56,496 nucleotides of DNA from Bacillota bacterium (lineage in GTDB: Bacteria > Bacillota > UBA4882 > UBA10575). This document shows, one piece after another, positions 4,288 through 9,395 of this stretch. The first letter of the stretch is position 1; each line of letters starts with the position of its first letter. Location: positions 1-56,496 of the forward strand of contig DUQR01000032.1 in assembly GCA_012837715.1 (NCBI GenBank). The letters run 5' to 3'. A model generated the notes under the pieces. The model did no database searches. It was not told where the DNA came from and worked only from the letters and a program-made list of their open reading frames with translations. The translations under genes and the position numbers were made by a program.

Positions 4288-4334
4288 AACAAACCCTCCT
4301 CGATTTGCGCAAAAAATCACATAACGTTAAGATT

Positions 4335-4364
4335 ATTCTACTATCATTAAGTATTTCCTCCCAA
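4335..4364 (-). promoter_or_regulatory. Candidate sigma-A promoter of the EF-G-like gene
   Basis: On the minus strand TTGGGA (4359-4364) is followed after 18 bases by TAGAAT (4335-4340), upstream of the TTG start at 4287. The match is moderate; no other promoter is evident in this spacer. Confidence 0.4.
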
Positions 4365-4439
4365 AGATATTTTTTTTATCCCATCCTGGTTTAATTTTTC
4401 TACGCTCCCGTTTTTTCTTCTTCCGGAGGGATATTATTA

Positions 4440-4842
4440 CGTCAAGATGGTTAGAATAGTAATGGTAGATGACCGGCTGAACGAAGACTGAATTTAACCC
4501 GGTCAGGAGAGGCTGACACCGGTTAAAGGAGGTCGAGCAAAGAGCGGTTGGGGTATTGGTTATCGTTTAACCTTACCTTAAGCGTTCGGCGCGAAGGTCC
4601 CAACGATTTGATCTTATCCCCGCTAAGGTGGAGTCGTTGGGGCTGAGTGCAGAACCCTCTTCTTGCCTTAGGGGGAAATCGAAAACGACGGTAAAACGGG
4701 TTCTTCAAGTCGGTAGGAATAGGGTTCGAACAAAGGTTAACCGGGGTGCGAAACGGATCAGCGGAAAGGATCCCTGTTAGCCGGCGTGAAGGTCGGTCCA
4801 TCGCCCATGTCACCTGGAGGATGCCATCCTCCAGGTTTTTCA
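4440..4842 (+). ncRNA. Candidate multibranched structured RNA, unknown family
   Basis: No gene fits here on either strand, yet the plus strand folds well. The 5' segment 4468-4478 (GATGACCGGCT) pairs with 4791-4802 to close the molecule, with one bulged base. Inside are TTAACC 4494-4499 with GGTTAA 4521-4526 (extended by TCAG/CTGA), GTTGGG 4547-4552 with CCCAAC 4599-4604 enclosing hairpin GGTTA 4558-4562/TAACC 4568-4572, CCCC..CTAAGG 4618-4628 with CCTTAGGGGG 4666-4675, and GGATC 4755-4759 with GATCC 4769-4773. An 11-bp terminator hairpin follows at 4812. A TAGAAT at 4452 could be a -10 box, but no good -35 is seen. I checked it against the conserved cores of RNase P RNA, tmRNA, SRP RNA, 6S and common riboswitches and found no match. 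Confidence 0.6.
4812..4840 (+). terminator. Strong intrinsic terminator of the candidate RNA
   Basis: A perfect 11-bp stem, ACCTGGAGGAT (4812-4822) with ATCCTCCAGGT (4826-4836), has a GCC loop and is followed by a T-run on the plus strand only. There is no plus-strand gene upstream for it to end, which supports a non-coding transcript. Confidence 0.85.
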
Positions 4843-4848
4843 TTGGAC

Positions 4849-5349
4849 TCAGTTTTGATAGCCCTCTAAAATTCGCCATTTATCTTGGGCCTGGGTACAG
4901 ATGATCCCCGCTTTTAAATCTTCGATTTCCGCCAGCGGAAGTCGTCCTATATCAACCGGAATTACTTGTTTTAAAGGACCCGGTTGGTCCGGACTGCCCG
5001 CGTACACCCCAATCTCCCTCCCGTAAATCCCGATAAACTCTTGATCACGACACTGCGAACAAAGACCGGCCGTCTTTTTTTCCACGGCGACCTGGTCCGT
5101 CGTAAAACTAGTAATCATCCAGCCTGCTTGCGACAGGTCTTCCAATACTTGAGCCCATTTTTTTGGGGGGTAATGCGCTTCGGTCCCCTCTCCGTGTTGG
5201 CATTCGGTATAAAGGGTTTTAAGTTCAATGATTACGTCTTTCCGGGTCAAGCCCGGGCTGATGATGAGGGATAGTTTCCCCGGGTTAGCCAGTAGATACG
5301 TGCCACCGAAAATCAACGCCAGTAGTAGAACGGGACTCACCCTTTTCAT
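4849..5349 (-). CDS. bofC: BofC-like protein (sporulation signalling)
   Basis: This 166-residue protein has an N-terminal membrane or export segment (MKRVSPVLLLALIFGGTYLL), followed by a soluble region. Its second half matches the pattern of the BofC C-terminal domain: CSQCRDQEFIGIYG, then an IGVYAG..D turn and a terminal IDVG/LP..DLKAGI..WRILEGY-like segment. In Bacillus BofC is an intermembrane-space protein that restrains the SpoIVB protease in the sigma-K checkpoint. The neighbouring yebC supports the call, since bofC and yrbC (yebC) are close in B. subtilis. The ATG at 5349 was chosen for its GGGAG ribosome-binding site. The identification is by motif recall and is moderate; the remainder of the family could be very divergent. 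Confidence 0.6.
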   Translation of the reverse strand: MKRVSPVLLLALIFGGTYLLANPGKLSLIISPGLTRKDVIIELKTLYTECQHGEGTEAHYPPKKWAQVLEDLSQAGWMITSFTTDQVAVEKKTAGLCSQCRDQEFIGIYGREIGVYAGSPDQPGPLKQVIPVDIGRLPLAEIEDLKAGIICTQAQDKWRILEGYQN

Positions 5350-7701: not shown

Positions 7702-8436
7702 CTAACCCATTTTTCTAATCTCTTTTTGGAGTTTCTTGATAATCCTCTTTTCTAACCGGGAGATATAGGACTGGGAAATACCTAAATAATCGGCCACTTC
7801 CTTCTGGGTCTTTTCCACCCCGTCCTTTAACCCGAAACGCAGCTCCACAATGGATCTTTCCCGCCGGGACAGCATCGCCATCGCAGAGGACAGCAAGTCT
7901 TTGTCAACCTCCTCTTCCAACTGCTTATAAGCCACATCGTTATCGGTTCCTAAAACATCCGAAAGCAGTAATTCGTTCCCATCCCAATCCACATTGAGCG
8001 GTTCATCAAAGGAAACTTCCGAGCGGGTTTTACTGTTCCGGCGTAAATACATTAAGATTTCATTCTCAATACAACGGGAAGCATAGGTCGCCAACTTAAT
8101 CTTTTTATCCGGGTCAAATGTATTTACGGCTTTGATGAGGCCGATCGCGCCGATGGAAACCAGATCTTCGATCCCGATCCCGGTATTCTCAAATTTCCGG
8201 GCAATGTATACTACTAAACGGAGATTATGCTCGATTAAGAGACTCCGGATCGCCGGATCGCCGGTTTTTAGTTTTTCCAACAGATAACCTTCCTCTTCAC
8301 TACTGAGGGGAGGAGGGAGAGCTTCGCTCCCACCGATATAGTAAATCACCTTGGGGTAAAGAGTAAGCTTCTGCAAAATACGGACAATTTGGATTTTTAT
8401 AGCTAACCGAATACGCCACCAATTAATCCCGGACAC
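7702..8436 (-). CDS. sigE: Sporulation sigma factor E precursor (pro-sigma-E)
   Basis: The 244-residue protein directs mother-cell transcription early in sporulation. It carries the membrane-tethering pro-sequence (about residues 1-32, with [10 protein letters not shown]) and the processing region [16 protein letters not shown], where B. subtilis pro-sigma-E is cut between two Tyr residues; the equivalent here is Y32/Y33. Region 2 ([37 protein letters not shown]) and region 4 ([20 protein letters not shown]) are highly conserved. I place the start at the GTG at 8436, eight bases from AAGGAGGA; a TTG two codons upstream is too close. spoIIGA, encoding its protease, lies immediately upstream. 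Unlike in Bacillus, sigG does not follow. Confidence 0.97.
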
Positions 8437-8492
8437 GACCAACTCCTCCTTTAATTCTAGATACCGATGAACCCAATCTGGGGCGCAATAAT

Positions 8493-9395
8493 TTAATAAA
8501 CCTCGTTCAGGATCGATGCAGGTAAAAGTGCTTGGTAATTACCGGCTCGACTTAAAGCAGTCAAATGATAAAGACCAATCACCACCGGTGGCAGTCTTTT
8601 CGGTTCTTTCTGAACAAGACAGACTTCATCTGGACGAAAGCCCAACAAAAAACCGCTTTTCTTCCCCACACTCGTGTAACTGATGAAGCGGAGCCGAGCC
8701 GCCCACTCCGGACTAAAGTCCAGGGCCTTGTTATCGGGAAATCCTCCTTCCGCCAAAAGTTGGCTTAAGGTGAGAATCTTCCCGGGCAGGACCCCTTGGA
8801 AAAGGGCGGCTTCGACCACGAGTACCGGCTCTTTCGTTAAAGGATCAATCAGGGTATTGCCAGTATCCAGCAAAGCGGAGAACTCCTTGGTTACACCATT
8901 AACGCTAAGACGAAGGGAGAAGAGGCATTCTTTCTCCAGCAGCAGCTGGTGGACCAATCCCCACCCTAATTCAGTAACGATCAACAAAGACAGGATGTTA
9001 ATGAAAACAACTTGCCATGGATTAGGCGCCACCGGACGGGCGAAAAAGGGCGGATACATCAGAAAGTAGGTTATACCCGAAGTGAGGAGAAGAAGTAAGA
9101 TAAAGAGACCGACGGTACGAAGGAAAGCATTGACCGACCGTAAAGGGAAAGCAACCCGTAGCATCAGGAGGCCGGTCCCGAGAAAGAACAGCACTTCTCT
9201 ATTACCAACTGAGCCAAGCTCTATCCGGTAACAAAGGAAAAAGTAATAGACTCCGCCGAGCAAGGCTGCAAAAAACAGGCGGCGCCGGGTTTGCGTTTTC
9301 TTAAGAATCCGGCCGGTCGCCCAGAGCAGTAAATAATTCATGAGCAAGCTAACAAAAGCACCGAAAAGCCAATCATCAATGTACACTACCCGCAT
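8493..9395 (-). CDS. spoIIGA: Sigma-E processing peptidase SpoIIGA
   Basis: SpoIIGA is the membrane-bound aspartic protease that cleaves pro-sigma-E after a signal from the forespore. This 300-residue protein has five predicted membrane segments in its N-terminal half and a soluble C-terminal domain. The aspartic protease motif is visible as [14 protein letters not shown] around residue 178. The N-terminus [21 protein letters not shown] is typical. AAGGTGGG precedes the ATG at 9395. It is followed by sigE after 56 bases, so protease and substrate are co-expressed. The 314-base spacer upstream should hold its promoter. Confidence 0.95.

Follow-up and report, generated by a model that had tools for sequence, protein, structure and literature searches.

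Two small RNAs of the Bacillus forespore, CsfG and Bvs196, have been described (PMC9147052, PMC3574147). Bvs196 is a 294-nucleotide (nt) RNA of the hit-ecsA intergenic region of Bacillus, made in the forespore under sigma-F/sigma-G (PMC9147052), and CsfG, at 136 nt, is a forespore-specific small RNA of Bacillaceae under the same sigma factors (PMC9147052; PMC3574147). Other structured RNAs that invite comparison are the raiA motif RNA, or ModT (RF03072), which is widespread in Bacillota and whose loss alters sporulation (PMC11706538), and ROOL, GOLLD, and OLE, ornate RNAs that self-assemble with symmetry (PMC12286853). Here, we describe an RNA gene on a 56,496-nt stretch of DNA from a Bacillota bacterium (GenBank assembly GCA_012837715.1, contig DUQR01000032.1; the window below), in a gap where an earlier note, made from the sequence alone, had seen a structured RNA on the plus strand at 4440 to 4842. 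The gene is stand-alone, and at this locus its RNA is about 340 nt long. We propose it as the type of a new RNA class, outside Rfam: the six-way-junction forespore RNA.

We are close to certain that this locus represents a new class of conserved structured RNA. Taken as a whole, the earlier note is partly confirmed, in that the RNA itself stood and part of the helix set did not. The plus strand from 4440 to 4845 folds at -174.5 kcal/mol (z -7.1), a stability matched in 0 of 100 shuffles, and the terminator said to follow the RNA is present at 4812 to 4842. The view that the gap holds no credible protein gene agrees with our results: the only long open reading frame across the RNA, of 118 amino acids on the minus strand, has no Pfam match, and in the homologues the frame is broken and split, so that a minus-strand gene is rejected. 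The interpretation given at the time, an unassigned multibranched RNA that founds a class of its own or belongs, in divergent form, to a known class, was supported by each check that could be run. Covariance models of 4227 Rfam 15 families, judged against the gathering score, matched nothing in the window except two distant tRNAs; over 4330 to 4900, at E-values up to 10, matches were limited to a microRNA model and suhB, both far under their gathering scores; and at 42 homologous loci, none of the 4227 families matched across the RNA. No earlier description of such an RNA was found in the literature searched, although most subscription papers lay outside its scope and a prior description is possible.

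How does this RNA compare with those named above? CsfG is far shorter, has CU-rich loops, and is transcribed opposite the ylbH motif (PMC3574147); the Rfam ylbH model for that opposite strand has no match here on either strand, CsfG being otherwise compared by description only. The raiA/ModT RNA is abundant in exponential growth and not forespore driven, and RF03072 has no match to the window RNA. ROOL, GOLLD, and OLE are, like our RNA, large, highly structured, and poorly understood in function, but OLE and ROOL are larger, at about 600 nt or more, and their Rfam models do not match it. ROOL, in addition, is known from phages and prophages, but the window RNA was not found in two viral-contig scans, one plasmid search, or one phage search. 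A mobile or phage origin is rejected on these searches; it is also opposed by the place of the RNA between an EF-G gene and a bofC-like gene, which is retained in nearly all members of the taxonomic class that were tested.

The RNA is a single closed six-way junction, in which six short linkers join helix P1 and five arms. Its features, with the basis of each, are as follows.

4429 to 4458, plus strand: sigma-F/sigma-G-type promoter (-35 GGATA at 4429 to 4433, 15-nt spacer, -10 GGTTAGAATA at 4449 to 4458)
4464 to 4478, plus strand: 5' strand of P1, pairing with 4791 to 4805
4479 to 4485, plus strand: linker A, GAACGAA (repeated-linker analysis)
4486 to 4534, plus strand: arm H1 (covariation)
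4535 to 4541, plus strand: linker B, GAGCAAA (repeated-linker analysis)
4542 to 4587, plus strand: arm H2 (covariation)
4588 to 4595, plus strand: linker C, GGCGCGAA (repeated-linker analysis)
4596 to 4644, plus strand: arm H3 (covariation)
4645 to 4651, plus strand: linker A', GAGTGCA (repeated-linker analysis)
4652 to 4727, plus strand: arm H4 (covariation)
4728 to 4734, plus strand: linker B', GAACAAA (repeated-linker analysis)
4735 to 4782, plus strand: arm H5 (covariation)
4783 to 4790, plus strand: linker C', GGCGTGAA (repeated-linker analysis)
4791 to 4805, plus strand: 3' strand of P1, the closing helix (covariation)
4812 to 4842, plus strand: intrinsic terminator hairpin and T run (sequence, minimum free energy fold)

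P1 is thus bracketed by the promoter upstream and the terminator downstream, which lend indirect support to a transcript, and the terminator hairpin is also found in most same-genus copies of a 14-copy alignment. Of the helices given in the earlier note, the closing helix was right in kind and slightly short (4468 to 4478 with 4791 to 4802), and 4494/4526, within H1, and 4558/4572, the tip of H2, are consistent with the conserved model. Helices 4547/4604 and 4618/4675 turned out to be alternative pairings of the single sequence that are not conserved; the 14-member alignment and its compensatory changes favor H2, H3, and H4 as listed. Helix 4755/4773 survives as a local hairpin only, within a variable arm tip. 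That reading had included neither the promoter nor the six repeated linkers (starting at 4479, 4535, 4588, 4645, 4728, and 4783), nor the phylum-wide reach of the RNA.

The helices are upheld by covariation at two depths, and the homologue set shows the strong compensatory change that the earlier note had looked to as support. For the 14 aligned family copies, RNAalifold gave 104 pairs, 43 of which have both sides changed with the pair kept in at least one sequence; 96.1% of cells are paired, versus 89.0% when shuffled and at most 53% with slid partners, and there are 103 double-change cells against 31 in the control. P1 and all five arms are upheld in the family. In a core alignment of 46 copies drawn from across the phylum, the paired cells amount to 96%, versus 75% shuffled and at most 50% slid, a percentage biased upward by a linker search that favors pairing arms, and double-change cells number 422, with 119 +- 12 expected. 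Aligning H1 and H2 across families with MAFFT gave the same picture, with 95.6% paired and a covariation score of 0.79 (0.26 shuffled, at most 0.18 slid). A further pairing proposed by RNAalifold, between C and C' (GCGC/GCGC), has zero double changes, and the two linkers are noncomplementary in many distant copies; it was therefore omitted from the model.

The linkers follow the order A-B-C-A'-B'-C' with lengths of 7, 7, 8, 7, 7, and 8 nt, and in the window each is flanked by C/U and G and joins covarying helices. When linkers were located by a dynamic-programming search that looks for complementary arm bases at their flanks, 48 of 81 copies (59 distant loci included) had all six, 46 of these 48 with exactly those lengths; the best score among 810 dinucleotide shuffles was 20.5, and the real median was 40. 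Arms in the distant copies are often about 37, 35, 75, 94, and 74 nt long, and in the 46-copy core the third pair of H2, H3, H5, and P1 is nearly always a U.G wobble. One small motif, C-GRNYNAA-G, recurs in the linkers and the adjoining helix bases, in many cases together with that U.G third pair. The arms bear a second, self-complementary wobble motif, GGNUC/GGN'UC, at 2.3 per copy versus 0.24 in shuffles (about tenfold), which is lacking in several same-genus copies. A compact copy (L057, in G018) keeps all six linkers on far shorter arms. In L058 (G026) and L059 (G019), a long hairpin seems to have taken the place of the ring's second half, and these copies have a sigma-G-type promoter.

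The RNA has the appearance of a three-linker module that was duplicated within one molecule. A covariance model of the first half (R1) also matches the second half in three genomes, and a third model made from first halves only (R3) often matches second halves too (e.g., in G132, E 7.6e-12), which is direct evidence of internal duplication.

The RNA is found across much of the phylum. BLASTN located it in each of the seven further genomes of the genus that were searched, and also in several related genera, the named records being uncultured Bacillota metagenome-assembled genomes (MAGs), one of them labeled Hydrogenispora sp., and R1 found it in 21 of 29 genomes of the taxonomic class. Among 398 genomes drawn evenly across Bacillota, a model of the B-arm-C module (R2) matched in 133, often twice per locus, and R3 found the RNA in 173. 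Several loci have features of their own: in G011 (L014), the RNA occurs in two tandem copies with promoter-like sequence before each; in G171, CRISPR-like direct repeats (GTTTCAATCCACACTCCCGCATGGGGAGTGAC) start soon after the RNA on contig C55 (L092), and a second RNA locus lies on contig C7; group II intron domains lie downstream of the RNA in G145 (L165, 1040 to 1349); and a 16S rRNA gene starts a few hundred nt downstream in G249 (L141, 1434 to 1701).

The promoter points to the forespore. The sigma-F consensus is GYWTA-N15-GGNRANANTW, and it overlaps that of sigma-G, GNATR-N17/18-CATNNTA. The window promoter fits GNWTA-N15-GGNNANANTA, and family copies have GNATA-N15-GGnTAnAATA upstream, a pattern kept while the spacer diverges. 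A strict sigma-F or sigma-G match precedes 35 of 65 RNA copies (0.6% of shuffles), and a relaxed one precedes 51 of the 65 (1.5% of shuffles). The end of the -10 element is nearly always 20 to 27 nt before linker A in these copies; this near-constant distance suggests that transcription begins about where P1 does, predicted here at about 4464 to 4465, and hence that the transcript is one closed junction and then the terminator. In this genome, the same promoter pattern lies 29, 51, and 102 nt upstream of the genes for alpha/beta SASP, YtfJ, and a GerA protein, which are classic forespore genes. The RNA also tracks the forespore sigma factor. With SigG scored by TIGR02850 and taken as absent where the best E-value is above 1e-60, the RNA is present in 172 of 340 SigG-positive genomes and in 1 of 58 SigG-negative ones, the lone exception being a 61%-complete MAG. 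Based on these patterns, the RNA is very probably expressed in the forespore from a sigma-F/sigma-G promoter.

Bvs196 is the described RNA that comes closest to this picture: it, too, is a sigma-F/sigma-G forespore RNA that stands alone with a terminator and has a conserved structure (PMC9147052), the promoter here being assigned by sequence pattern only. The Bacillus-type hit-ecsA loci L110, L111, L113, L114, and L115 carry two to three repeats like GAGGUGU-N-GUNAAAG-AY, and some hit-ecsA copies also carry GGGGAUGG repeats and a sigma-G-type promoter. These repeats end in AAAG or CAG, as do linkers of the window RNA, but they are different repeats (GAGGUGU-N-GUNAAAG-AY and GGGGAUGG) in a different place, hit-ecsA rather than EF-G/bofC-like. 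On the Bacillus-type hit-ecsA loci, R2 reaches 6.6 bits at best, which is chance level, and the six-linker ring was not found on either strand. On these two results, homology is not supported and Bvs196 is regarded as a functional analogue; a far relationship between it and the window RNA class is possible.

What might such an RNA do? We propose a mechanism in which the RNA, transcribed in the forespore from its sigma-F/sigma-G promoter, would close on itself through P1 to form the six-way junction, whose six equivalent joints would serve as binding sites. On the base of each helix, A.G and A.R pairs formed by the C-GRNYNAA-G linkers could stack, leaving a bridge of 3 to 4 nt. Six equivalent joints suggest six equivalent contacts, and the RNA would then act in trans, collecting several copies of a single RNA-binding protein as a scaffold or sponge in the forespore. 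We infer that this is its most likely role, at a probability of roughly 0.45. Several points weigh against it or against the evidence beneath it. The role of scaffold or sponge is drawn solely from the repetition of equivalent motifs, and G019 and G026, in the same taxonomic class, clearly keep A-B-C only, so not every copy needs six sites. The promoter pattern has 16 matches genome-wide versus 12 for the reversed control, which means that the promoter claim stands on position and conservation and not on any single site. The co-occurrence with SigG (Fisher p ~1e-14) is inflated by shared ancestry, as are the covariation counts, and about half of the SigG-positive genomes have no match, the RNA there being either absent or too diverged.

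Other explanations differ in how far they account for these observations. A divergent RNase P RNA, tmRNA, OLE, raiA RNA, or group II intron remnant would be of similar length, and group II introns are likewise laid out as a wheel of six helices. Such an origin is nonetheless extremely improbable, given that cmscan to E 10 found no such family here, nor did the search of the 42 homologous loci. The genome's single match to class A RNase P RNA (RF00010) is on another contig (C27:71723-72125, 285 bits), as is its tmRNA (RF00023; C27:62871-63218, 188 bits); the RNA is therefore not a divergent copy of either. Just as improbable, and largely refuted, is a cis-acting leader, a riboswitch or attenuator of a neighboring gene, with which the size and complexity of the RNA would be compatible. 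In the taxonomic class, the RNA sits between the divergent EF-G gene and the convergent bofC-like gene (with a BofC_C domain), so that in the window both flanking genes are on the opposite strand; in other families, the neighbors vary in identity and strand, a same-strand gene follows the RNA in only 8 of 26 loci, and the RNA ends in a terminator. This variability implies that the RNA is no leader and would act in trans. As to the rest of the window, it is rich in sporulation genes, among them the bofC-like gene and, at 7702 to 9395 on the minus strand, SpoIIGA, which adjoins a sporulation-type sigma factor, probably SigE.

Two further readings would also have the RNA act away from its neighbors. 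As a trans-acting antisense RNA, it would pair through exposed loop and linker sequences with forespore mRNAs, as proposed for Bacillus Bvs196. A stand-alone gene with its own terminator would suit this reading, but the invariant bases are purine-rich junction linkers, repeated sixfold and kept phylum-wide, where a target-specific seed should occur once and change along with its targets, and the arm tips are free to vary in length and sequence; we consider it unlikely. Somewhat less likely again is an RNA-only structural or storage RNA of the spore, copies of which would use the conserved wobble helices and linkers to assemble into a particle without a specific protein partner, as ROOL, GOLLD, and OLE do. 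Its sixfold repetition and pseudo-twofold duplication, the enrichment of the GGNUC/GGN'UC motif, and the precedent of ornate RNAs that form RNA-only complexes (PMC12286853) speak for such a particle; the absence of that motif from several same-genus copies speaks against it, as does the fact that ROOL, GOLLD, and OLE are separate Rfam families, none of which matches. In total, we favor the protein scaffold or sponge over mRNA pairing and mRNA pairing over the RNA-only particle. More tentatively, we speculate that this is an ancient Bacillota spore RNA whose internal duplication gave six near-equivalent joints arranged in a ring, and that it nucleates a forespore particle, of ribonucleoprotein or of RNA only, carried in the spore, with Bvs196 as a possible far-diverged counterpart.

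Endospore formation is among the best-studied developmental programs of bacteria, and it has been described almost entirely through proteins. A large RNA whose promoter is of forespore type and whose six-way plan is rigid, present in 173 of 398 sampled Bacillota genomes and almost never where SigG is lacking, would be an overlooked conserved component of sporulation. Its repeats make it an uncommon example, among natural RNAs, of construction by duplication of a small junction module, and the class opens direct tests of the role of RNA inside a spore.
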